A stretch of 36,371 nt of DNA, taken from assembly GCA_029959665.1 (NCBI GenBank), contig JASCOI010000019.1, forward strand, positions 1 to 36,371, given 5' to 3'. Positions within the stretch are counted from its first letter, which is position 1. Every line of letters begins with the position of its first letter. Source of the stretch: Microbacteriaceae bacterium PS02333 (GTDB lineage: Bacteria > Actinomycetota > Actinomycetes > Actinomycetales > Microbacteriaceae). Below the pieces are notes generated by a model, which was not told where the DNA came from, searched no databases, and worked only from the letters and a program-made list of their open reading frames with translations. Made by a program: the position numbers and the translations under genes. Positions 9,442-28,750 of the stretch are shown in pieces.

Positions 9442-9750
9442 TTACAGCTTGATCTCGATGTTGACGTCGGCCGGGAGGTCGAGACGCATGAGCGAGTCGA
9501 CGGCCTTCGGCGTCGGGTCGACGATGTCGATGACCCGCTTGTGCGTGCGCTTCTCGAAGTGCTCGCGCGAGTCCTTGTACTTGTGGGGAGAACGGATCAC
9601 TGCGATCACGTTCTTCTCGGTGGGGAGCGGCACCGGGCCGACCACGGTCGCACCGGCACGGGTCACCGTGTCGACGATCTTCCGGGCCGACGTGTCGATG
9701 ACCTCGTGGTCGTACGACTTGAGCCGGATGCGGATCTTCTGTCCCGCCAT
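9442..9750 (-). CDS. rpsJ: 30S ribosomal protein S10 (NusE)
   Basis: Head-domain protein that also acts as NusE in transcription antitermination with NusB. The length is 102 aa, the standard size. The start is ATG at 9750 ([29 protein letters not shown]), preceded by an AGGAC-type ribosome-binding site; an in-frame extension to 9882 is unsupported. It contains the S10 signature region [24 protein letters not shown]. It is the first gene of the S10-spc operon. Confidence 0.98.
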
Positions 9751-10254: not shown

Positions 10255-10318
10255 CCGAACCGCGAAACGGACACAGCACCACGCAGTCGCGCGGTGCTGT
10301 GTCCGTTCTGGGGTTCCG
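10255..10318. repeat. 64-bp palindromic element, copy 1 (probable terminator)
   Basis: Nested inverted repeat: a 7-base outer arm, 4-base interior loop, 18-base inner arm (AACGGACACAGCACCACG, 10266-10283), 6-base loop, 18-base complementary arm (10290-10307, one mismatch), 4 bases, 7-base outer arm. It ends 8 bp from the stop codon of the DarT-like gene, so on the minus strand it is placed like an intrinsic terminator, though only TTT follows the stem. A second copy with identical geometry lies at 28094-28157; hand alignment gives 52 of 64 identical bases. Confidence 0.85.
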
Positions 10319-10326
10319 TGTTCGGG

Positions 10327-11154
10327 TCAGTCCTCGTCGGGGACCACCGGCGGCACGAACCACGGCGGGAAGACCGCGACGCGCGGGACGTGCCCGCCGT
10401 GCTCGGAGAGGATGTCCTTCACGGCGTGGCGTGCACGGTCGTTCGGCACGCCGATGACCGCGACCGAGGAGAACGGCACGCTCGGCCCGGCGAGGACCTC
10501 CACGCCGTGCATCTCCGGGTCGGTGAGGTCCGTGCGGCGCAGCAGGTTCGCCGCGGCCTCCGGACCGACCGCGAACCGGACGTCCTCGGCGTCGGCGTCG
10601 GTGTCCGCCAGGATCACCGAGGCGCCGAAGGCCGCGGTGGGGACGACGAGCACGACGTAGTCGACGCCACGGGCGTGCCGGGCGGCGTCGGACCAGCGCT
10701 CGGTGTCGTGCGCCCCGCGTCGGACCTCGTCCCAGCGCGCGCCGTCGGGCGAGAGCGAGAACGGCACGTGGCTGGCGACGCTCGACCCGTCGGGCGCGGT
10801 CGCCGCCGCTCGGGCCTCGCGGGCAGCAGGGGCGCTGATGTCGTAGGACGGCGTGACGGCGTCGGACGCGAGGATCGCCCCGTCCGCGACGATCCCGTCG
10901 AAGTTGTCGATGTGGGTCACGTGGTGTGCGCGCAGGGCGCCGAAGACCCGGGCGGCCGGCATGACCGGCTCAGCGGTGCGCAGCGCGGTCGCCTTCGCGC
11001 GGGCGGGCGAACCGCCGGGGGTCGACCGCAGCGAGGTGCTGACGCGGGTGCGCCGCGGCGCAGGGGCCTTGGGGACGTCGGGCACCTCGCGCTGTCGAGG
11101 CGCGCAGATGTCGCAGAGTTCGGTGGGGAATCCGTGGATGCACTCGTCGGTCAC
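10327..11154 (-). CDS. DarT-like (DUF4433) protein with Cys/His N-terminal motif
   Basis: A 275-aa protein starting at GTG with an AAGGA site upstream. The N-terminus has a short putative metal-binding motif, CIHGFPTELCDIC (C5, H7, C14, C17), then a Pro/Arg/Ser-rich linker to about residue 65. Residues ~70-240 resemble DarT/DUF4433 DNA thymidine ADP-ribosyltransferases: an opening HVTHIDNFDGIVADGAIL, a SHVPFSLSPDG stretch (compare the VPFYF segment), and HGVEVLAGPSVPFSSVAVIGV, where E219 is placed like the catalytic glutamate. No DarG macrodomain antitoxin is adjacent; both flanking genes are accounted for. It may therefore be a DarT relative without toxin activity, or one whose partner lies elsewhere. 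The family call is from motif recall, not a search. Confidence 0.7.
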   Translation of the reverse strand: MTDECIHGFPTELCDICAPRQREVPDVPKAPAPRRTRVSTSLRSTPGGSPARAKATALRTAEPVMPAARVFGALRAHHVTHIDNFDGIVADGAILASDAVTPSYDISAPAAREARAAATAPDGSSVASHVPFSLSPDGARWDEVRRGAHDTERWSDAARHARGVDYVVLVVPTAAFGASVILADTDADAEDVRFAVGPEAAANLLRRTDLTDPEMHGVEVLAGPSVPFSSVAVIGVPNDRARHAVKDILSEHGGHVPRVAVFPPWFVPPVVPDED

Positions 11155-12236: not shown

Positions 12237-12329
12237 ACACGTCCCGCCTCAGCGGGGCAGCAGGAAGCGACGGATCGCGCACCGCGACCCGGTGGAACCG
12301 ACCGGCCGACGGGGTGGTGCCGACCGACG

Positions 12330-12375
12330 ACGGACGGGAGGACCGGTGCGGGCGTGCACCGGTCCTCCCGTCCGT
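12330..12375 (-). terminator. 20-bp perfect hairpin terminator after the DUF11 gene
   Basis: Arms 12330-12349 and 12356-12375 are perfectly complementary over 20 bp with a 6-base loop. It begins 43 nt past the stop of the large surface-protein gene and lies before the topoisomerase start. No U-run is present, as is common in high-GC actinobacteria. Confidence 0.85.
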
Positions 12376-12380
12376 CAGGC

Positions 12381-12425
12381 GGTCACCGCAGGCCGCTCGG
12401 TCACCGCCCGCCGTTCGGTCACCGT
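12381..12425. repeat. Triple GGTCACCG motif at the 3' end of the DUF11 gene
   Basis: GGTCACCG occurs at 12381, 12399 and 12418 (18 and 19 bp apart), the last overlapping the stop codon of the DUF11 gene. The flanks are also similar. It may be a short tandem duplication just outside the coding region; no function is evident. Confidence 0.5.
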
Positions 12426-15400
12426 GCGTCGCGTCGGCGGCGGACCAGGAGCAGCAGCAGGCCGACCGAGAGCGCGAGCAACGCGAGCGCTCCCCCGAGA
12501 CCCAGTCCCGCCGCACCGGTGAACGCCAGCGCACGGGGCTGCGGGTCGGCGCGGACCGGAGCCGGGTCGCTCGCGCGGAGCGGATCCGTCGCGACCGCGC
12601 CGGCCACCTGCGTCGTCGCGGACCGGACGGTCGCGACGTTGGTGATGCGGTCGGGGGCGTCCGCGGCGACCCGGACGGTCAGCTGGATCGCGATCCGGCC
12701 ACCGCTGGCGAGCGGCTCGTCGAGCGTGCAGGACACCGTCGAGCCGGTCGTGCAGGTCGCGGCACGGTCGTCGACGCTCACGAACGACAGTCCCGTCGGC
12801 AACACGTCGGTGACCACGACGGGACCAGGGTCCTCGGTGGGTCCGGCGTTGCTGACCGTGATCGTGTACCCGACCGTGCTCCCGCGCACCAGCTCGCCGG
12901 TGTGCGACTTCGTCACGGACAGGCTCGAGAGCGGCTGGACCGCGAGCTCGTCGTCGGCGTCGTTGTCCGCCAGCGTCGTCTCGGTGGTGGTCGTCGCCAC
13001 CGTGGCCGTCGGCGTCACACCGGGGTAGGCCGCAGCGGTCGGCGTCTGGTGCACCGTGATCGCCGGCGCCAGCGTGCCGGCCGGCAGCGTGCCGCTCAGC
13101 GCGAACGACACCGTCGTGCTGCCGTCGGCGTTCGTGACGACCCCGGTGACCGTCCAGGCCGGGTCCGCCTCGGTCGAGACGTACGTCAGGCCCTTCGGCA
13201 ACGTGTAGGTCCCGGTGACGGCCGCCGCGTCGGAGAGACCGGCGTTCCGGACCTGCACCGTCTCGGGCAGGTCCTTCCCGATCACGGCCCTCCCGGTGTG
13301 CCCGATGCTGATCTGCACGTTCGCGACGGCGGCGACGGGCAGCGGGGCCGTTGCCGTCCCGCCGTTGGTGCCGACCGGCTCCGGGGTGCCCTGCGCCGTG
13401 ATCGCCGCGCGGTTCTCGATCGCACCGGCGGTGTAGCCCGACGCGATCGCCGTGGTCAGCCAGAGTCCCGGCGCATCCGTGCCCGCGACGACGGTCGATC
13501 CCAGCGTGCACGACACGACGCTGGCGTCCGTGGTGCCGTCGCAGGCCCACACCGCGCCGTCGGACTGCGCGGCGACGAACCGCATGCCGTCCGGCAGCTG
13601 GTCGGTGACGACGGTGTCCGGCTGCTCGTCGGACGGTCCCGCGTTGCGCACCTGCAGGTACCAGACCTGCTGGCCGCCGGCGGTGGTCGTCGTGGAACGG
13701 TCCGTCGACCCGGCCCGGTCGACCGGGGTCTTCGACAGCGTCAGCGCGGCGTGCGTGGTCACGTCGACGTCGGCACCCGCGGTGTCGTCCGAGGGATCCG
13801 GGTCGTCCGTCGCCGAGGAGACCGTCGCCGTGTTCCGGAGCGTGCCGGCCGGCGTCCCCGAGGCGATCGCCGCCCTCACGTGGAACGTGGCGGACGCACC
13901 GGACGCGAGCGTGCCGGTGGACCAGGTGGTCGGGTCGACGCCCTGTTCCCACGCGGCGTCGTCCGTGGTGACCGCGGTCACGGTCATCCCGGCCGGGGCG
14001 GTGTCGGTCCACGTGACGCGCTGGGCGTCCGAGGGGCCGGCGTTCGTCACGGTCACGTCGTAGGTCACGTCCGTCCCGGCGTCGGCCGAGGCCGCGCTGG
14101 TCCTGGTCTTCGTGATCGACAGGTCCGCGGAGGTGGTGACGCCGACGGTCGCGTCGTCGTGCGCCGTCTCCCCCTTCGCGGTGACCGGCGCGGCGGTCGC
14201 GGTGTTCACGATGGACGAGCCACGGAACGCGGCCGGGACGTGCACCACGACGCCGATGGTGTCCGGATCGGTGGCACCAGCGGCGATGCCGTCGGTGCTC
14301 ACGAGGGTCAGGACGCCGTCGACGTTCGACTCCACGGTCCAGTGCGCGGCGGTCCCGTCGGTCAGCCCGACGTACTCGACGCCGACCGGCAGCGTGTCCT
14401 GCACGCGGACGCTCGGGGTCGTCGCGTCGCCCGCCGGCAGGTCGGACGGCCCGTCCGGGTTCGCGACCTGGATCGTGTAGGTGACGTCCTTCCCCGCGTC
14501 GACCGACTGGACGTCCGCGGTCTTCGTGACCCGCAGTCCGACCGTCTGCGTCGCGGCACTCGAGGTGCTCGCCGTCTGCGTCGCCGCGTTGTCCGAGCGC
14601 ACCACGGCCGTGTTCGCGAGGGTGCCGGAGAGGTCGGCGGGCGTCGTCACCGTGATGGTGAACGACGACGTCGTCCCGGCACGCAGGGTGCCGTCGAGCA
14701 CGCAGGAGACCGTGTCGTCCGACGTGCACGTCCAGTCGCCGTCGGTCTGTGACCCGCCCTGGAGGCTCGTCCCCGACTCGAGCGCGTCGGTCACGACGAC
14801 CTTCCGCGCGTCGGCCGTGCCGGTGTTCCGGACCGTGATGGTCCAGTCCGCCGGCTCGCCCGCCACGAGGCGGTCGCTCGAGAACGCCTTCGCGATCGTC
14901 AGCGAGGTGGTGTCGTCGACCGGGGTGTTCGTGGTGCTGACGTCGTTCGACGCCTTCGGGTCGGTCGTCGACGGGTCGACGGCGACGCGAGCGGTGTTCG
15001 CGATCGTCTGCGACGCCGTCGTGTCCGGCTGCACCGTCGCCGTGACGGTGATCGGCGGTGCGGTCGTCCCGTTCGCCAGGCCGTCACGGGTGCAGGTCAG
15101 GGTGTTGCCGTCGGTGTCGCACGTCCACCCGCTGTCGTCCGCGACGGTCGCCTGCTCGAGCCGTACGGTGCTCGGCAGCGTGTCGGTCACGGTGACGGTG
15201 CCGCGGGCGTCGGAGTCGCTCTGCTCGGCAGGGTCACGGACGTTCTGCACCGAGAGGGTCCACGAAGCGGTCCCACCGGCGGTGAAGCGATCGGCTGCGG
15301 CCGTCTTCGTGATGGCGAGGTCCGCGATCGCGACCGGGGTGGTGCTCGCCGAGTCCGAGTCGTTCGCGTCGTTCGGGTCGAACGTCTGGCCGGTGCCCTG

Positions 15401-18400
15401 GTGGATCGTCGCGCTGTTGCGGATCGCGGTGAGCGGTGCGTCGGCGGGCAGCGTCAGTGCGACGTCGAGCTCCGGGAACGCCGAGCCCGACGCGACCACG
15501 GCACCGTTGACGCAGGTCTGCTCGTCCGTGCCCGTCGTCGTGCACGTCCAGCCCGACCCGGTGAACCGCAGCGTGGCGCCGTCCGGGAGCCCGGCGACGG
15601 TGTCCACCACGGTCGTGCCGTGTGCGGCGTCCCCGCGGGTGTTCGTGACCACGATCGTCCAGGCCTTCGCCGTGGTCGCGCCGGCCACCACGTCCGCGGT
15701 CGTCGCCTTCTTGGCGATCGACAGGTCGGCCGCGGCGATCGCGGCGGTCGCGGTCGCGTCGGTCCCCGCGGTGCCGTCCTGCTGCTTCGGGTAGGTGGTG
15801 AACGAGCCGGCGCCGCCGTCGTACCCGGTGCCGCCGGAGGCGTCCGTGATCGTCGCGGTGACGTGGTTCGTGTGCTTCGTCGCCGTGCCGGCCGCCGTGG
15901 CAGCGGCCGTCGTCGGGGTCGCGCGGTAGTGGAGCGTCAGGGTCTCGTTGGTCCCGAGCGTCCCGAGGTCGGCCCAGGTGAGCGTGGTCCCGGCCGCCGA
16001 CGGGTCGGGAGCGGCCGCGCTGGCGCCACCGTTCCTGGTGGTCGTCGAGCTGCCGCCGTCGTAGGTCCACCCGTCGGGCAGGACGTCCCGCGCGGCGACG
16101 GAGGTCGCGGCGCTGCCGGTGTTCGTGAACGTCACCGTGAAGTCGGACGGGACGCCGACGTAGGACAGCCCGCCGGCGGTGTCGTTGGACTTCGCCACGG
16201 CGACGGACGGGAACGACGGGGTCACCGACGCGCTCGCGGTGGTGGGGCCGTACGAGCCGCCGTCACCGTCCGGGAGCGACGTGTACGTGCCCGTCGAGGC
16301 GGTGTTCACGAGGGCGTCGCCGGTCAGCTTCGCGTCCTCGGCGAGCACGGCGTGGTACGTGTACGTGGTCGTGGAACCGGTGCCGGAGATCGTGCTGGGC
16401 CAGGTGATGACACCGCCGCCGCACTTCGCGTCGGTGCCCAGGGTGCCGCCACCGGAGATCCGCGCGGGGTCGACCACGATGCCGTCCGGCACGCAGTCGG
16501 TGACGCTCGTGCCGTACGCGGGCGAGCCGGAGCTCGAGACCGTCACCGCGTAGGTGATGTCCTGGCCCGGTTCCGCCTTCGCGGTCGTCGTGGTCTGCCC
16601 GGCGACCGTCGCCGACTTCGTGATCGCGAGCGACGGGGTCACCGCGGTGGCGTTCGCCTGGTTCGACGTCGTCGATGCGTCGGTCGGCTCGGCCCCCTTC
16701 GCCGTCCGGTCGTAGGCGAGTTTCGCGGTGTTCGAGTACGCGGTGCCCGACGCCTGACCTGCACCGACCCGCACCGGGACGTCGACCGTGATCGTCAGCG
16801 GCGCGCCGAGCCCCGTCGCGATGTCGGAGATCCGCACCGTGACGGTCCCGGAGGCGACCGAGGGGGTGACGGTGACCGAGGAGTCGCTCGCGGTCGCGGT
16901 CGGGGTCCCGACCGCGGACATGCCCTTCGGCAGGGTGTCCGTGATCCGGCCGTCGTACATCGCGACGTTCGCCGGGACGGTCGCGGTGATGCGGTAGGTC
17001 GCGGTGTCGCCGGCGCGGATCGGGAGCGCGTTCTTGTTCGCGGGGTTCGTCGTCGCGGTGCCCGTGCCGGCACCGGTCGTGGCGTTCCACGTCGGCGCCG
17101 TGAGCGTCTTCGCGATGGACGGCCCGGTCACGGTCACCGAGTTCGTCGCCGTCGCGACCTGCACGAAGGACGTGTTCGCCGTGGCGTAGTCGGTGTCGAG
17201 GCTGGACGCGAGGACCCTGGCGGTGTTCACGTACTGCCGTCCGGCGGGGGCGGCCGTCCCCACCGTCGCGGTGACGGTGATCGTCGCGGAGGCGCCGGCG
17301 GCCAGGGTGCCCACCGACCACGTGTGCAGCGTGGTGCCGGTCGGGCAGCTGCCCAGTGCGGTCTGCTGCGCGCTCGTCGGCGTGCTCTCGGCACGCGAGC
17401 TGCTCGTGAGGGTGAGTTCGTCGGGGAAGCAGTCCGCGATCACGGTCGACCGTGCGTCCGCGGTGGACGCGGTGTTCTTCGCCGTCAGCGTCCACGTCAC
17501 CGTGTCCCGACCGGCGACGGTCCGGCCGCCCAGGTTGTTGGTCTTCGTGATGCCGACCTGCGGGGGCTGGACCGCGATCGTCTTCGCCGCGGAGCTCGTC
17601 GACGGGGTCCCGTCGGCCGGCTTCGACGAGAACGTCGCCGTGTTCGTGACGGCGCCGGGTGCGGTGCCGGACGCGTCGTACTTCCCGACACCCTTCGTCA
17701 CCACGAGGCCGGATGCGGTGACGGAGAAGACCGCGGTCGAGTCCCCGGCGTTGTCGAAGGTCGTGGGGAAGACCACGGCGCCGGCGCCGAGCGTGTTCCC
17801 CGTCCCGGTCAGCGTGAAGGTCTGCCCGGCGTAGGTCCCGTCGACGTCGGTCGACCGGGCCGAAGCCGGCACGGTGATCGTGCTGCCGTCCGGGAAGGTC
17901 AGGGTCCAGCTGCTCGCGGACGTCGTCGAGACACCGGTCGGCAGCGGGTCGCTGAGCGTGGCGTTGCCGACGCTCGTGTGTGCCGGGACGGTGGCGGAGT
18001 AGGTGTACGTCACGCCCTGGCCGGGCGCCGCGGTGTCACCGGAGAGGTTCGTCGTGGAGCCGGCGACCGAGCCGCCGCGCTTCTCGACCGCCACGGCCGG
18101 GATCGACACGGATCGTGCAGCGTCGGCGTTCGGCGCCGTCCCCTGCCCCGGCGCCGGCGTCGCGGTGAAGGTGCTCCCAGCAGCCTTCGCCGGGATCCAG
18201 GTGGTCGTCGTGTCCGCGTTCGTCGTGGTCGTGAAGCTGGTGACCGACGCGGTGTTGGCGTACGCCGTGCCGACGTACCCGGGGGTCGGCACGGTCAGGT
18301 CGTACGCCAGCGCCTTCGTGGCAGCGGCGTCGATCGAGGGGATCGTCCAGCGGAGGTAGCGCGAGGACGCGTACTGCGACGCGGCGCCGGTCGGCGCAGG

Positions 18401-20935
18401 ACCGCAGGCACCGTCGTCCGAGATCGCCGAGACCGCAGCACACTCGACGCCGGCGGGGAGCGCATCCCACACCGTGACGTCACCGATGGCCGCGCTGGAG
18501 CCCGTCGCCGGTCGGTTGCCGACGGTCAGGCGGTAGTGCAGCGTCGCGCCCTCGGTCGTCGTCGGCGGGTTCGTGACCGAACCGCTGGCGTCGACGATGT
18601 CCTTCGCGAGGGTCGCGGTGGGCGTCCCGGCGACGGCGTAGCCGACCGAGGTGCGGAGACTCGTCACGGCGCCGGCGGTGTTCTGCTGGGCGACCTTCAT
18701 GAGGTTGTCGGCGAGGTCGACCTTCGTCGCGCTCGAGCCCTGCGAGGTGATGCGCGCGGCGACGTAGAGCACGACCCGTGCACCGTCGGCGTCACCGTCC
18801 ACGTACGTGCCGCTCGCGCCGGAGACCGTGTGCCCGATCGCGAACGCGCCCGTCGTCGACGACGAGGACGTCAGGGCGACGTCCGACTCCGGGACCGTGC
18901 TCTCCGTCCCGTAGGACCAGTCGGTGTCCTCGGCCCAGCTGCTGCCGGCCGTGGTGTGCACGGGGAGCATGTCGGTGATCGTCGCGTTGCGGCTCTGGAC
19001 GCCGGCCGGGAAGTCCACCTGCAGCTTGAAGCAGACCAGGTCCCCGAGCTCGAAGGCGTCGCTCGGGGTGGTCGTCACGTAGGAGCCGGGCCGGCCGTCC
19101 GCGGTGCAGTCGGCGGAGCTCGTCACGCCGTCGCTCGCGCTCCGCGGCAGGACGGACTTCGTGATCGTCGGGGCCTTCGACGTGATGGACGCCCGGGAGT
19201 CGTCGACCACCTTCGTGGCACCGCTGTCGCCGTGGACGCCGGTGGAGGTGCCCGTCATCGCGACCGTGTTGTCGAACGAGTCACCGGCGGACGTCGGCCC
19301 GCCGGAGCCCGTGACCGAGTAGGCGGTCCGCATGAGCGCCTGGTACCGGACGGTCGTCGCGCCGTCTGCTGCCAGGTCCGCGATGTGGAACGAGATCGTG
19401 AACTTCCCCGTCGCGGCGTCGTAGGCGACACGGTCCACGGTGGCGTTCGTCATCTGCTGGTCCAGCGACGCGTTCATCGCGAGCGTGCAGTCCGCGGGGA
19501 AGGTCCCCGTGGTGGGCGTGCCCGACGGGTACGCGGGGCAGAGTCCGTCGCCGAGCGTGTCGGTGAACGTGATGCCCGCCGACGACTCGTACTCGCTCGC
19601 CCGCACGTCCAACGAGTAGGTCGCGAACTTCCCGGCCGCGAACGAGCCGTCCGCCGGCGTGGTGACCGACTTCGCCACGGCGAGGTCCATCGCCTCGACG
19701 GTGAGTGCGGCGCTCGCGGACTGCGCCGAGGTCGCCGTCCCGCCGACCTTGCCCGTGTAGGTCCCGGCGGCGACGACGGTGTTCTCCTGTCCGCGGCCGT
19801 TCGAGGTGGTGTCGGCGGTGTCCTGGCGGGTCGAGGGGCCGTTGTTGTTGTCGAGGTTCGCCTCGTCGTGCAGCCCCGTGGCGGCCGGTGCCGACACGGC
19901 CCCGGCGGGCTTGTCCGTGCCCTGCCCGCTGAACGCCATGGTGTTCTCGAAGAGCGGCACCGCGGCGAGGTACTTGATGGTGACCGCGGTGTTCGTCAGC
20001 GTCGGGATCGACCAGACGACCTTCGTGAAGACCGCGCCGCCCTGTCCCGGGACGTCGTCCACCGTCGTGACGCTGTCCGGCGTCAGGCAGGCGCTCTGGT
20101 CCCACGAACCCGTGGCGCCGGCCGCCGTGGCGGACTGGAGCGACGGAGCGCCCGCGTACTCGGGTCCCGAGGTCGTGTTGTCGATCGCGCCGCAGCCGAG
20201 GAACTCCAGCCCCGCCGGCAGGAGGTCCGTCACCGTGACGTTCGTGCTCGGAGCCGTGGCGGTGTTCTGTACGGTCAGCGTGTACACCGTCGGGTGGTCG
20301 TGGACGCCGCGGACGAGCTCGTTCTCCGGGCTGCCCTCGGCCTTCGTGATCCGGATCGCGGAGATCGACGTCGGGTTCGACGTCGCCGTGGCCGAGTTCG
20401 ACGTGTTCGTCGCCGGAGCCCCGGTGGCGTCGAACGTCGGGATGTTGCGTGCGTCGTCGTTCACGGCGATCTGTGCCGTGCCGGTGAACGACGTGCCCAC
20501 CGGGAAGACGGCGTCGGACGCGGTGACCTGGAACGCGATCGACTTCTGGTCGCCCGAGACCAGGTCGGACACGTTCGAGAAGACGAGGAGCGTGCCACCG
20601 TCCGCGAGGGTCGTCGTGGTCGGATCGGGGAGCGCCGTTCCGTCCGCCGTCGCCTTGCCCGCGACGTAGCTCACGCCGGCCGGCAGCGTGTACGAGTACC
20701 CGAGGTTGAAGAGGTCCGTGCCTCCGGATGCATCCGCGGTGTTCTTCGCCGTGAGCGTCACCGTCGCCGGCGCCCCGCTCAGGACCGAGTCGTCGGCCTT
20801 CGCCGTGACGCTGACCGTCGAGGCCGCCGCCGCGGGCTGCGCGATCGCGAACACCGCGAGGAGGCCGGTCACGAGGGCGATCACCACCACCATCGCCACG
20901 GATCGGGGGCGTGCGGGCAGCAGGGACAGTCGCAT
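12419..20935 (-). CDS. Giant secreted DUF11-repeat surface protein with LAFTG anchor
   Basis: A 2838-aa secreted protein. Residues 1-~37 are a signal peptide (basic start, hydrophobic MVVVIALVTGLLAVFAIA, Ala-rich cleavage region). The body is about 18 DUF11-type beta-sandwich repeats of roughly 130-170 residues, recognisable by a recurring start (LSITKT, LAITKS, VAVEKR), a T-V-x-N-x-G strand and a D-x-LP-x-G motif (for example VTVTDLLPAGLEFLGC and VVVTDVLPTGLSFVSV). The C-terminus carries LAFTG (2803-2807), a hydrophobic helix and RRRRDAR, matching a class E sortase LAXTG signal. It is therefore likely anchored to peptidoglycan and displayed as a long stalk, perhaps as an adhesin; the ligand is unknown. 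No sortase gene is in the window. The frame is intact over 8.5 kb. The large plus-strand ORFs across it are antisense shadows. Confidence 0.95.
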   Translation of the reverse strand: MRLSLLPARPRSVAMVVVIALVTGLLAVFAIAQPAAAASTVSVTAKADDSVLSGAPATVTLTAKNTADASGGTDLFNLGYSYTLPAGVSYVAGKATADGTALPDPTTTTLADGGTLLVFSNVSDLVSGDQKSIAFQVTASDAVFPVGTSFTGTAQIAVNDDARNIPTFDATGAPATNTSNSATATSNPTSISAIRITKAEGSPENELVRGVHDHPTVYTLTVQNTATAPSTNVTVTDLLPAGLEFLGCGAIDNTTSGPEYAGAPSLQSATAAGATGSWDQSACLTPDSVTTVDDVPGQGGAVFTKVVWSIPTLTNTAVTIKYLAAVPLFENTMAFSGQGTDKPAGAVSAPAATGLHDEANLDNNNGPSTRQDTADTTSNGRGQENTVVAAGTYTGKVGGTATSAQSASAALTVEAMDLAVAKSVTTPADGSFAAGKFATYSLDVRASEYESSAGITFTDTLGDGLCPAYPSGTPTTGTFPADCTLAMNASLDQQMTNATVDRVAYDAATGKFTISFHIADLAADGATTVRYQALMRTAYSVTGSGGPTSAGDSFDNTVAMTGTSTGVHGDSGATKVVDDSRASITSKAPTITKSVLPRSASDGVTSSADCTADGRPGSYVTTTPSDAFELGDLVCFKLQVDFPAGVQSRNATITDMLPVHTTAGSSWAEDTDWSYGTESTVPESDVALTSSSSTTGAFAIGHTVSGASGTYVDGDADGARVVLYVAARITSQGSSATKVDLADNLMKVAQQNTAGAVTSLRTSVGYAVAGTPTATLAKDIVDASGSVTNPPTTTEGATLHYRLTVGNRPATGSSAAIGDVTVWDALPAGVECAAVSAISDDGACGPAPTGAASQYASSRYLRWTIPSIDAAATKALAYDLTVPTPGYVGTAYANTASVTSFTTTTNADTTTTWIPAKAAGSTFTATPAPGQGTAPNADAARSVSIPAVAVEKRGGSVAGSTTNLSGDTAAPGQGVTYTYSATVPAHTSVGNATLSDPLPTGVSTTSASSWTLTFPDGSTITVPASARSTDVDGTYAGQTFTLTGTGNTLGAGAVVFPTTFDNAGDSTAVFSVTASGLVVTKGVGKYDASGTAPGAVTNTATFSSKPADGTPSTSSAAKTIAVQPPQVGITKTNNLGGRTVAGRDTVTWTLTAKNTASTADARSTVIADCFPDELTLTSSSRAESTPTSAQQTALGSCPTGTTLHTWSVGTLAAGASATITVTATVGTAAPAGRQYVNTARVLASSLDTDYATANTSFVQVATATNSVTVTGPSIAKTLTAPTWNATTGAGTGTATTNPANKNALPIRAGDTATYRITATVPANVAMYDGRITDTLPKGMSAVGTPTATASDSSVTVTPSVASGTVTVRISDIATGLGAPLTITVDVPVRVGAGQASGTAYSNTAKLAYDRTAKGAEPTDASTTSNQANATAVTPSLAITKSATVAGQTTTTAKAEPGQDITYAVTVSSSGSPAYGTSVTDCVPDGIVVDPARISGGGTLGTDAKCGGGVITWPSTISGTGSTTTYTYHAVLAEDAKLTGDALVNTASTGTYTSLPDGDGGSYGPTTASASVTPSFPSVAVAKSNDTAGGLSYVGVPSDFTVTFTNTGSAATSVAARDVLPDGWTYDGGSSTTTRNGGASAAAPDPSAAGTTLTWADLGTLGTNETLTLHYRATPTTAAATAAGTATKHTNHVTATITDASGGTGYDGGAGSFTTYPKQQDGTAGTDATATAAIAAADLSIAKKATTADVVAGATTAKAWTIVVTNTRGDAAHGTTVVDTVAGLPDGATLRFTGSGWTCTTTGTDEQTCVNGAVVASGSAFPELDVALTLPADAPLTAIRNSATIHQGTGQTFDPNDANDSDSASTTPVAIADLAITKTAAADRFTAGGTASWTLSVQNVRDPAEQSDSDARGTVTVTDTLPSTVRLEQATVADDSGWTCDTDGNTLTCTRDGLANGTTAPPITVTATVQPDTTASQTIANTARVAVDPSTTDPKASNDVSTTNTPVDDTTSLTIAKAFSSDRLVAGEPADWTITVRNTGTADARKVVVTDALESGTSLQGGSQTDGDWTCTSDDTVSCVLDGTLRAGTTSSFTITVTTPADLSGTLANTAVVRSDNAATQTASTSSAATQTVGLRVTKTADVQSVDAGKDVTYTIQVANPDGPSDLPAGDATTPSVRVQDTLPVGVEYVGLTDGTAAHWTVESNVDGVLTLVSTDGIAAGATDPDTIGVVVHVPAAFRGSSIVNTATAAPVTAKGETAHDDATVGVTTSADLSITKTRTSAASADAGTDVTYDVTVTNAGPSDAQRVTWTDTAPAGMTVTAVTTDDAAWEQGVDPTTWSTGTLASGASATFHVRAAIASGTPAGTLRNTATVSSATDDPDPSDDTAGADVDVTTHAALTLSKTPVDRAGSTDRSTTTTAGGQQVWYLQVRNAGPSDEQPDTVVTDQLPDGMRFVAAQSDGAVWACDGTTDASVVSCTLGSTVVAGTDAPGLWLTTAIASGYTAGAIENRAAITAQGTPEPVGTNGGTATAPLPVAAVANVQISIGHTGRAVIGKDLPETVQVRNAGLSDAAAVTGTYTLPKGLTYVSTEADPAWTVTGVVTNADGSTTVSFALSGTLPAGTLAPAITVHQTPTAAAYPGVTPTATVATTTTETTLADNDADDELAVQPLSSLSVTKSHTGELVRGSTVGYTITVSNAGPTEDPGPVVVTDVLPTGLSFVSVDDRAATCTTGSTVSCTLDEPLASGGRIAIQLTVRVAADAPDRITNVATVRSATTQVAGAVATDPLRASDPAPVRADPQPRALAFTGAAGLGLGGALALLALSVGLLLLLVRRRRDAR

Positions 20936-27627: not shown

Positions 27628-28050
27628 TCAGTTCGACTGCTTGGTCTGGTGCCTCGCCATCGCGATCCCGCCGATCACGCAGAGCAGCGCTATCACGACC
27701 GAGCCGACCACGAACGGGCCGAGCGCGTAGCCCGCCGGGAACACCAGGAGCTCGGTGACGTCCCGGCGGATCAGCGCGTAGCCGACCGACCCGACGCCGA
27801 GCATCACGAGGTAGCTCGTCGCGGCTGCGACCAGGCCCGTGACGCCGGGGTTGCCGTCCGGGATGCCGAACGCCGTCGCGAGGAACACCACCACGGCGCC
27901 GCCGAGGACCATCGCCGGGCCGAGGTACGGCGTCGCGTCGGTCTGGGAGATGATCGCGATGTCGGCGAGGAGGGACTCGAACCCGCTCACGGCGATGACG
28001 AGCGCGATGAAGAGGATCGACGTCATCGTCGCCACCAACCACCGGGACAT
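27628..28050 (-). CDS. Small four-helix membrane protein (DUF6121-like?)
   Basis: A 140-aa integral membrane protein with about four hydrophobic helices (residues ~6-25, 42-62, 69-91, 104-133) and a short basic tail ending ARHQTKQSN. The start is ATG at 28050 (MSRWLVATMTSILF); the in-frame upstream extension to 28113 overlaps nothing conserved and approaches the palindromic element. It resembles small actinobacterial membrane proteins of the DUF6121 type, a tentative match. No catalytic motif is visible. It follows the second 64-bp palindromic element by 43 bp. Confidence 0.7.
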   Translation of the reverse strand: MSRWLVATMTSILFIALVIAVSGFESLLADIAIISQTDATPYLGPAMVLGGAVVVFLATAFGIPDGNPGVTGLVAAATSYLVMLGVGSVGYALIRRDVTELLVFPAGYALGPFVVGSVVIALLCVIGGIAMARHQTKQSN

Positions 28051-28093: not shown

Positions 28094-28157
28094 CCGGACC
28101 GCGGAACGGACACAGCACCACGACGATGCGTGGTGCCGTGTCCGTTGCGTGGTTCGG
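28094..28157. repeat. 64-bp palindromic element, copy 2 (probable terminator)
   Basis: Same nested architecture as at 10255-10318: outer 7-base arms, 4-base interior loops, 18-base inner arms (28105-28122 and 28129-28146, one mismatch), 6-base loop. The left inner arm is identical in both copies. It ends 5 bp from the stop of the CBU_0592-like gene, again in terminator position for a minus-strand gene, and stands upstream of the four-helix protein. Confidence 0.85.
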
Positions 28158-28162
28158 CGAGG

Positions 28163-28750
28163 TCAGCTCGCGTGCTGCTCCTGCTGCTCGCGGTCGTGCT
28201 GCTCGTTGCGCTCGGCGCGGCGCTGCTCTTGCGCGGCGTTCACGAGGGCGATGGCGATCGCGGCGGTGATGACCGGGACGCTCTCGGTCATGGGGGCGGC
28301 GGCGGCGCTGGTTGCCGCGGTCGTCGGTTCGGCCGGTTCGCCCGGTTCGGCCTGTTCGGCCGGGAGGCTCGGGGGCGCGTCCGCCGTGTCCGTCACGTCC
28401 GGCTCGTGGTGCCGGACGGCGGGGCCGATCACGGGCAGCACCGCGGTCGTGGCCGCCGGCTCCGTCGAGAGCTCGTGGTGCGTCTCGAGACCGGCCCGCT
28501 TCGCCGCGCGACGCGCGTTCGCCATGCGGACCAGGACGACTACCGCGACGACGGCCCAGATGCCGTTGACGATGGTCGAGGGGACGGCGTGGTGGGCGGC
28601 GACGTTGACCGCCACCGCGAGCCCGCCGACGAGGTTGAACAGCTGGTAGACCGGGCCGTTCGGGAGCTTGCCCGTTGAGAACAATATGTAACCAGCAAGG
28701 ACGGTTACAGCTCCGAACCATCCGAGGAATTCCACGATTCCAGACAACAC
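28163..28750 (-). CDS. CBU_0592-like membrane protein with charged tail
   Basis: A 195-aa membrane protein. Three helices (residues ~4-24, 33-52, 57-77) match the CBU_0592-like pattern: FLGWFGAVTVLAGYILFSTGKLPNG, then VYQLFNLVGGLAVAVNVAAHHAVPSTIVNGIWAVVAVVVLVRM. A cytoplasmic-looking tail follows, Pro/Glu/Ala-rich and then with a hydrophobic patch (VPVITAAIAIALVNAA) and a Gln/Glu/Arg/His-rich end. The start is GTG at 28750 after GGAG; longer frames upstream are shadows. The first ~30 codons use many A/T-ending codons (ATA, TTG, GCT, GGA), unlike neighbours. Function is unknown. Confidence 0.8.
   Translation of the reverse strand: MLSGIVEFLGWFGAVTVLAGYILFSTGKLPNGPVYQLFNLVGGLAVAVNVAAHHAVPSTIVNGIWAVVAVVVLVRMANARRAAKRAGLETHHELSTEPAATTAVLPVIGPAVRHHEPDVTDTADAPPSLPAEQAEPGEPAEPTTAATSAAAAPMTESVPVITAAIAIALVNAAQEQRRAERNEQHDREQQEQHAS

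Follow-up and report, generated by a model that had tools for sequence, protein, structure and literature searches.

The window analysed here is the whole stretch of 36,371 nucleotides that makes up positions 1 to 36,371 of contig JASCOI010000019.1 (assembly GCA_029959665.1, Microbacteriaceae bacterium PS02333). It contains two palindromes of 64 bp, both of a type designated A, that lie next to the 3′ ends of unrelated genes. The palindromes, the motifs within them and the neighbouring genes are as follows.

10255..10318, no strand assigned: palindrome copy 1, type A, 64 bp, lying upstream of rpsJ, 8 bp beyond the stop codon of the DarT-like gene
10257..10264, plus strand: outer left 8-bp motif of copy 1, GAACCGCG (motif register taken from the family alignment)
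10276..10283, plus strand: inner left motif of copy 1, GCACCACG
10290..10297, minus strand: inner right motif of copy 1, reading GCACCGCG on the minus strand
10309..10316, minus strand: outer right motif of copy 1, reading GAACCCCA on the minus strand, degenerate
9442..9750, minus strand: rpsJ (ribosomal protein S10), the next gene downstream of copy 1
10327..11154, minus strand: DarT-domain (PF14487) gene, 275 aa, whose 3′ end adjoins copy 1
28094..28157, no strand assigned: palindrome copy 2, type A, 64 bp, 5 bp beyond the stop codon of the gene whose 3′ end is at 28163
28096..28103, plus strand: outer left motif of copy 2, GGACCGCG
28115..28122, plus strand: inner left motif of copy 2, GCACCACG
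28129..28136, minus strand: inner right motif of copy 2, reading GCACCACG on the minus strand
28148..28155, minus strand: outer right motif of copy 2, reading GAACCACG on the minus strand
27628..28035, minus strand: DUF6121 gene, the next gene downstream of copy 2
28163..28684, minus strand: gene that has no Pfam match, with its 3′ end next to copy 2 (the open frame continues to 29341 and the start is uncertain)

The earlier note, made from the letters of this DNA, had singled out these two elements, and its figures hold on measurement: 52 of 64 bases are identical between the copies (18 of 18 in the left arm, 16 of 18 in the right), and the minus-strand stop codons at 10327 and 28163 lie 8 bp and 5 bp from copy 1 and copy 2, the ends of the 5 to 8 bp range that it gave. 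Each copy has Watson-Crick bases at 25 of its 32 paired positions, and RNA folds of either strand of either copy reach −45.6 to −52.5 kcal/mol (z −7.2 to −8.6), a stability attained by 0 of 200 shuffled controls. Rfam families gave no match in the window at gathering scores. The DarT-domain (ssDNA ADP-ribosyltransferase) gene sits directly upstream of the S10 operon and has homologues in 59 of 60 Curtobacterium genomes. Elsewhere in the window, the minus strand between the ribosomal operon and tuf (12419-20899) encodes a protein of roughly 2,830 aa that contains 12 stretches of DUF11. Both contig ends (1-103 and 36305-36371) carry long poly-C/poly-G runs; similar runs occur within contig C222 of the same draft genome, and they are probably assembly or sequencing artefacts.

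The palindromes are members of a large family. In the draft genome from which the window comes (G000, 322 contigs), a 15-mer from the arm gives 22 + 22 matches at up to 2 mismatches, against 8 + 4 for the reversed pattern, so that repetition of the arm exceeds chance. A covariance model built from 14 hand-picked copies, which also picks up types other than A, finds 34 places in this genome at E ≤ 1 (64 strand matches). Two of these (on contigs C268 and C166) are weak palindromes inside called genes, and the other 32 comprise 16 A or A-like copies and 16 copies of type B (CCGCACAACCGAAAGCA..CCGCACCACG) in a common 64-bp register, the type letters here and below being assigned by eye; a search by pattern yields further B copies missing from the model's list. 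The model matches all 60 sampled Curtobacterium genomes at E ≤ 0.01, with 2 to 76 strand matches each. At E ≤ 0.001, a survey of the bacterial family gave matches in 17 of 249 genomes, spread over 7 of 85 genera; four of these genomes are Curtobacterium, and another Curtobacterium genome (G040) had no match in that survey. The suggestion in the earlier note of a dispersed palindromic family with terminator-like placement is thereby borne out, with many copies beyond the two in the window, both in the same genome and in relatives. Viral contigs held 0 exact pattern matches and plasmids none to the model at E ≤ 0.01, which gives no sign of a phage or plasmid origin.

A common design, GNACCNCG-N11-GNACCNCG-N6-CGNGGTNC-N11-CGNGGTNC, is found in 80 named A copies and in other types, with departures from the motif such as GCACAACG in type B. 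Type C reads GCGCCCCG..ACGGACATC-GCGCCCCG. The window's two copies and the A, B and C copies seen elsewhere all measure 64 bp; types E, G and H measure about 53-70 bp. The pattern used to collect A copies itself fixed columns 14-20 and 22-26 with their partner columns; motif columns outside it (A5, C6, C7, G29, C36, G58, G59 and T60) are nevertheless kept in 74-79 of the 80 copies. Among 91 A copies, covariation at pairs 9/56, 11/54, 12/53, 13/52, 21/44, 27/38, 28/37 and 30/35 exceeds that of shuffled columns, and pairs 4/61 and 8/57 preserve base classes only. From this column conservation and covariation it follows that both pairing and base identity are kept in the family. A separate, stereotyped class of hairpins (D-type, CGGACGGGAGGC..GCCTCCCGTCCG, 44-48 bp) also occurs at gene ends, at 12329-12376 of the window and on contigs C222 and C111 of the same genome. 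Tandem clusters of elements were seen in four other genomes (G029 L353:1867-2280, G058 L357:1530-1932, G042 L356:33-373 and G019 L358:1249-1624); two of the four alternate B-C-B-C with near-identical units, in a BIME-like manner.

The placement of the copies is strongly biased towards gene ends. With genes called by a home-made codon model, 41 of the 80 named A copies lie between convergent genes, 30 between tandem genes and none between divergent genes; a further 6 adjoin a contig edge, and 3 fall within a called gene. The 188 background gaps of the same loci (80 bp or longer) are convergent in 30 cases, tandem in 102 and divergent in 56. The divergent deficit (0 of 71 placed copies versus 56 of 188 background gaps) has a Fisher p of 1.3e-9. 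The median distance of an A copy to a stop is 19 nt, most, although not all, copies being within 50 bp of one, and the nearest start codon is at least 33 nt away. Solitary copies stand beside assorted housekeeping genes, and no neighbouring gene common to them was seen. The logo of the 80 A copies has no U tract. Position and shape are those of two-way terminators, and the hairpins probably end transcription.

Such placement past stop codons and between convergent genes is also what would be expected if the palindromes were terminators and nothing else, a sequence-specific factor needing this shape so that unrelated hairpins converge upon it. U-less terminators are indeed described for mycobacteria (PMC12288462, as far as that account goes), and these I-shaped hairpins resemble the present ones in being strong and GC-rich, in having no U tract and in lying mostly within 50 bp past a stop. 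They differ from what is found here, as far as the same source describes them, in that the present sequence is common to dozens of unrelated genes, has a fixed 64-bp geometry, varies strongly in copy number and comes with a matched gene (see below). Convergence on a shape does not account for an interior sequence conserved far beyond pairing, nor for types that are abundant in some lineages and absent from close ones.

This unevenness between close relatives is considerable. Counted by pattern with up to 3 mismatches, at which control patterns all gave 0, A, C and B copies number 14, 6 and 12 in G000 and 3, 41 and 7 in its sister G043; the corresponding figures are 30, 0 and 0 in G046, 0, 47 and 2 in G047, and 0, 32 and 0 in G038. 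Over the 60 Curtobacterium genomes, type A is present in 35, C in 43 and B in 10. The 32 sites of G000 (the weak palindromes on C268 and C166 left aside) were mapped onto G043, whose flanking sequence farther than 40 bp away is for the most part 0.9-1.0 identical. Judged by eye, the sister has the same type at 9 sites, type C instead at 7, another hairpin or a remnant at 6 and none at 6; three further rows (L032, L038 and L204) are uninformative and one (L041) is unclear. The site of copy 1 in the window is among those with a C palindrome in the sister. Copy 2 is present in G000, G043 and G024, and no copy lies within 150 nt of the stop in the other 27 of 30 orthologous loci, of which the one in G026 says little, as the stop found there lay 196 codons further on. 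At locus L203, the remnant in the sister resembles the loss of an A copy through recombination of its GGTT-containing arms, leaving CGAAACCAGGTTCCG as a scar.

Element-bearing gaps have a median identity between G000 and G043 of 0.65 (17 convergent) and 0.725 (10 tandem), as against 0.935-0.96 in 23 element-free gaps (p 1e-7), with the reservation that sites were chosen for the presence of an element in G000 and that only 1 of the 23 control gaps is convergent. Over 244 kb of G000, from which 30 gaps could not be mapped, convergent gaps have medians of 0.67 without a hairpin (4 gaps), 0.88 with another hairpin (5) and 0.38 with an A-C element (2), and tandem gaps 0.91 (40), 0.82 (8) and 0.74 (3), respectively. 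Part of the fast turnover may therefore belong to convergent gaps in general, since those four gaps without a hairpin are also diverged, a point in favour of the reading of the palindromes as terminators only. D-type hairpins are 0.88-0.99 identical between the two genomes at four sites, and 0.63, 0.76 and 0.07 at others.

Copies are more alike within a genome than between genomes (0.58 versus 0.516 at variable columns; 0 of 300 permutations), which fits proliferation and also gene conversion, the second origin that the earlier note had entertained. Homologous recombination and conversion, together with the exchange of whole intergenic pieces and without a dedicated enzyme, would explain this likeness and the replacement of whole gaps between species. 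On that account the gene described below is a passenger in an allele cassette, and the alleles of the cassette do switch independently of the adjoining pgm. Conversion needs a prior copy, yet sites of presence and absence exist: a C copy in G043 lies in a 96-bp stretch that is absent from G000 at C111:2244-2411, beside a D hairpin common to both, by a gain in the one genome or a loss in the other. Nor are 6 versus 41 C copies in sister genomes easily explained in this way, and recombination without a dedicated enzyme is regarded as a rather improbable source of the family.

Several known ways of moving short palindromes were considered. The REP-associated transposase that the earlier note had suggested looking for did not turn up: Y1 transposases (PF01797, E ≤ 0.001) are found in 0 of 60 Curtobacterium genomes and in 5 of 14 control genomes, and a RAYT as mobilizer is rejected on this result. 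The logo ends of the 80 A copies, C[CG]G[AC]ACC and GGT[TG]C[CG]G, show by eye no GTAG/GTGG foot; GTGG occurs inside the arm of many A copies, not at the foot. The REP/MITE-like label of the earlier note thus stands for a dispersed family, but literal membership of either class is not supported: target duplications, a Y1 enzyme and the foot were not found, the length is 64 bp, and the associated gene is of another kind (see below). MITEs of a DDE transposon, the 64 bp representing fused terminal repeats, would be short, palindromic and multi-copy with very different copy numbers, as these elements are, and the framed gene with its matching outer arms (see below) resembles an insertion sequence of 1.14-1.28 kb. 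Set against this, 91 A and 16 B copies have no excess of duplication at their edges for k = 2, 3, 4, 5, 6, 8 or 9, so that MITEs with a target duplication are rejected; lone half elements are absent from G000 at 0-1 mismatch, all such matches lying within palindromic copies; and the sole recurrently framed gene found at the loci examined encodes no DDE transposase. A MITE origin is accordingly very improbable. Uptake sequences are rejected on the same absence of lone half-sites in this genome.

Several closely paired palindromes frame members of one fast-evolving gene family, and it was through these pairs only that the family came to light, its members scoring below the Pfam DUF559 model (which itself has 0 matches in G000). 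A tblastn search over the collected loci gave 12 matches, 11 of them between two palindromes and the twelfth (L281) a generic DUF559-like gene. The palindromes lie 70-126 bp before the start and −22 to +19 bp from the stop of the framed genes, and the framed unit measures 1.14-1.28 kb. Of the first 10 framing pairs, 7 agree better in their outer arms than in their inner ones, 2 agree equally well in both and 1 agrees less well in the outer arms, a tendency expected of terminal inverted repeats. The 11 loci (L169 and L350 being the same locus in one genome) include nine Curtobacterium genomes with a single site between pgm and accC; L079 is from another genus and another site, and its two flanking copies differ by one base. 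A palindrome was accepted at 21 of 31 pairs, and L195 counts as framed only at 20. Loci L075 and L079 were obtained with the covariance model, L114-L195 through an A copy, and L349, L350 and L352 through paired copies. Among 1505 called genes in the same loci, 301 have one element and 11 have two, 8 of these 11 being other genes, in a set of gene calls that missed the framed gene at several loci.

A test independent of the palindromes gave the same picture. The pgm/accC site was sought by synteny in 13 genomes and located in all except G036; all 12 located sites carry the gene (G031, G034, G033, G007, G006, G039, G017, G010, G015, G001, G043 and G012), and 11 of the 12 genes have a palindrome (type F, B, H, C or A) on each side, G012 having the downstream palindrome only. 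In total, 20 of 21 genomes are two-sided at pgm/accC, 12 of the 21 having been found without use of palindromes. Inverted flank scores of the framed genes (flank windows of 260 or 320 bp) are 22-62, with 10 for G012, and G039 scores 11 with the stop found by script and 39 after the gene end was set by hand; control genes score at least 16 in 3 of 496 cases, two of which are orthologues and none a palindrome pair. A forecast written before retrieval, of a C cassette in the C-rich G043 and A cassettes in G015 and G010, came true in all three genomes. The framing type is not always the commonest type, as G034, with 18 C copies by pattern, has a B-like pair around the gene. Broken framed genes occur in copy-rich genomes (for example G026, with 26 A copies). 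The contig of G000 that carries pgm breaks off 16 bases into an apparent B palindrome, and in this draft genome the framed gene was not seen, nor anything that would account for the 14 A copies.

Paralogues at other sites provide further, less certain examples of gene/palindrome pairs. Beside rplJ/rplL in G043 lies a paralogue whose framing inverted repeats begin with CCTTCCGCGAAAGCGACAG and are not full palindromes; ends of this kind also form solitary hairpins in G000 (L199) and G043 (L295, L361), and in another strain (L095) two of them stand close together in inverted orientation. A paralogue in G015 is framed by palindromes of 60-68 bp with the core CTCAGCGACA/CTGAGCGACA, resembling a solitary hairpin on contig C222 of G000. 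Eight loci of generic DUF559 genes showed no such palindromes. Near two generic DUF559-like genes, L281 (G043) and L283 (G045), a GAGGGA(A/G)CAGAA palindrome (type E) lies about 850 bp off, with an upstream one too in L281; this is possibly another gene/palindrome pair, with cargo.

The framed protein, of about 312 aa, has an AbiEi-like N-terminus and a predicted DUF559/restriction-endonuclease-fold C-terminus. Its relatives (the best 120 of 340 matches, from 8000 candidates scored) occur in several actinobacterial genera. Of 36 relatives, 32 are matched by the best PADLOC AbiEi model and 11 by Pfam AbiEi_4. The C-terminus gave no Pfam match in the two members tested, and solved structures gave no convincing match to the protein; alignment with hhalign to five AbiEi_4 + DUF559/REase_MTES_1575-like proteins reached 98.7% (E 3.6e-16) across the D..ExDG core. 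The core D-x(n)-ExDG-xxK is present in 15 of 17 proteins, both misses being broken genes. AbiEi antitoxins bind inverted repeats in their own promoters, as reported in the part of the literature consulted (PMC7319586), so that the framed protein could plausibly bind the palindromes.

The protein variant also matches the palindrome type. When types are grouped by letter, the 16 intact genes give 25 pairs that share a palindrome type, all with protein identities of 0.57 or more, and 95 pairs of differing type, none with an identity above 0.54; the nearest protein has the same type in 15 of 15 cases. The partial correlation between protein and palindrome identity given pgm is 0.53 (Mantel 0/5000), and 0.51 (Mantel 2/5000) over all 19 genomes with a pgm piece, including the three with broken genes (G026, G039 and G023); G011 and G006 have no pgm piece. 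A smaller set of 14 genomes gave Mantel 23/2000. The pgm piece is short (about 285 bp) and a weak stand-in for the species tree, and in 9 of 15 cases its closest counterpart comes from a genome with a different palindrome type. The match of protein variant to palindrome type thus goes beyond what the neighbouring pgm explains.

The most serious rival reading has the gene simply situated between two terminator sites and moving with them as a cassette. The layout of pgm, the gene and a convergent accC would alone invite terminators in the gaps on both sides of the gene, which is the form that the reading of the palindromes as terminators only takes at this site. It is disfavoured because the framing pair is matched in type, and to the protein variant, in many genomes, and because a practically identical pair surrounds a homologue in a second genus (L079); paralogues elsewhere are framed by other matched palindromes and, in one case, by other matched inverted repeats. 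Terminators without a cognate enzyme are, in view of this, considered unlikely.

The reading that we prefer, at a rough probability of 0.6, is that the palindromes are non-autonomous copies of a REP-like family, that the framed protein is the cognate factor that spreads its own palindrome type, and that the hairpins serve as two-way U-less terminators. The AbiEi-like part would recognize the palindromes and the nuclease part would cut them, as duplex or as extruded hairpin; cutting could then allow copies to spread to other gene ends, or such ends to be converted, much as RAYT does with REP but through a different enzyme. As the hairpins would terminate transcription in both directions at their sites, copies past genes might be tolerated or favoured and the palindrome kept intact. 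Against this reading stand the facts that movement of copies was not observed and that no target duplication was found. The B-like pair in the C-rich G034, the framed gene unseen in G000, the broken genes of copy-rich genomes, the missing upstream copy in G012, the C-terminus without a Pfam match and the generic DUF559 loci lacking such palindromes also count against it.

The closest likeness is to REP/REPIN sequences with their RAYT (TnpA-REP) enzymes, including REPtrons and TIRtrons, as far as two accounts describe them (PMC3733652, PMC3686654): in both systems, extragenic palindromes are dispersed in many copies, with several families per genome, variable copy numbers and some tandem clusters, and a single gene is framed by inverted copies, gene and repeat types being cognate (PMC3733652). 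The Curtobacterium palindromes differ in their 64 bp, against 20-40 bp given for REPs (PMC3733652), in having no GTAG or CGTC end tag, in the absence of an HUH Y1 enzyme from the genus sample and in a framed gene of AbiEi-like plus DUF559/REase-type fold; since enzyme, tag and size fail, they are not members of that system, and a REP/RAYT-like arrangement working with another enzyme is suggested. CGTC-tagged REPs are likewise extragenic palindromes without a Y1 partner, with another sequence, size and hosts, and with no associated gene reported in the sections of PMC3733652 that concern them. The protein resembles, in its N-terminal part, the inverted-repeat-binding antitoxins of the type IV toxin-antitoxin system AbiE, as outlined in PMC7319586; unlike that system, the loci examined have pgm and accC as neighbours and no adjacent AbiEii nucleotidyltransferase gene, the protein has an extra nuclease-like C-terminus, and inverted repeats lie on both sides of the gene and are scattered genome-wide. 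DUS/USS terminators of Neisseria and Haemophilus, in the descriptions drawn upon here (PMC5217627, PMC2267715), share with the present hairpins a common sequence and a terminator-like position past stops, and differ in that single half-sites are not abundant in G000. The openly accessible literature, as far as it was searched, yielded no description of such a palindrome/gene family; the spreading of short hairpins that the framing and the type matching suggest would then be undescribed.

More broadly, and at somewhat less than even odds, AbiEi-fused proteins of restriction-endonuclease fold may constitute a new class of mobilizing enzymes, each variant spreading or converting its own palindrome into gene ends, with many actinobacteria holding several such pairs. 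If so, types A, B, C, F and H, and probably G and I, would each represent a gene/palindrome pair by which terminators are kept rewritten, and short palindromic repeats would have a further route of mobilization in addition to HUH enzymes and DDE transposases. Extragenic palindromes for which no enzyme is known pose a continuing puzzle, the CGTC class having no dedicated transposase according to the relevant part of PMC3733652. A common, mostly unnamed protein family would gain a concrete and testable partner, whose natural variants allow specificity to be compared across types. Such a system would offer a reason for the fast change of hairpins at gene ends between close actinobacteria, and it bears on terminator prediction and on the evolution of gene ends.
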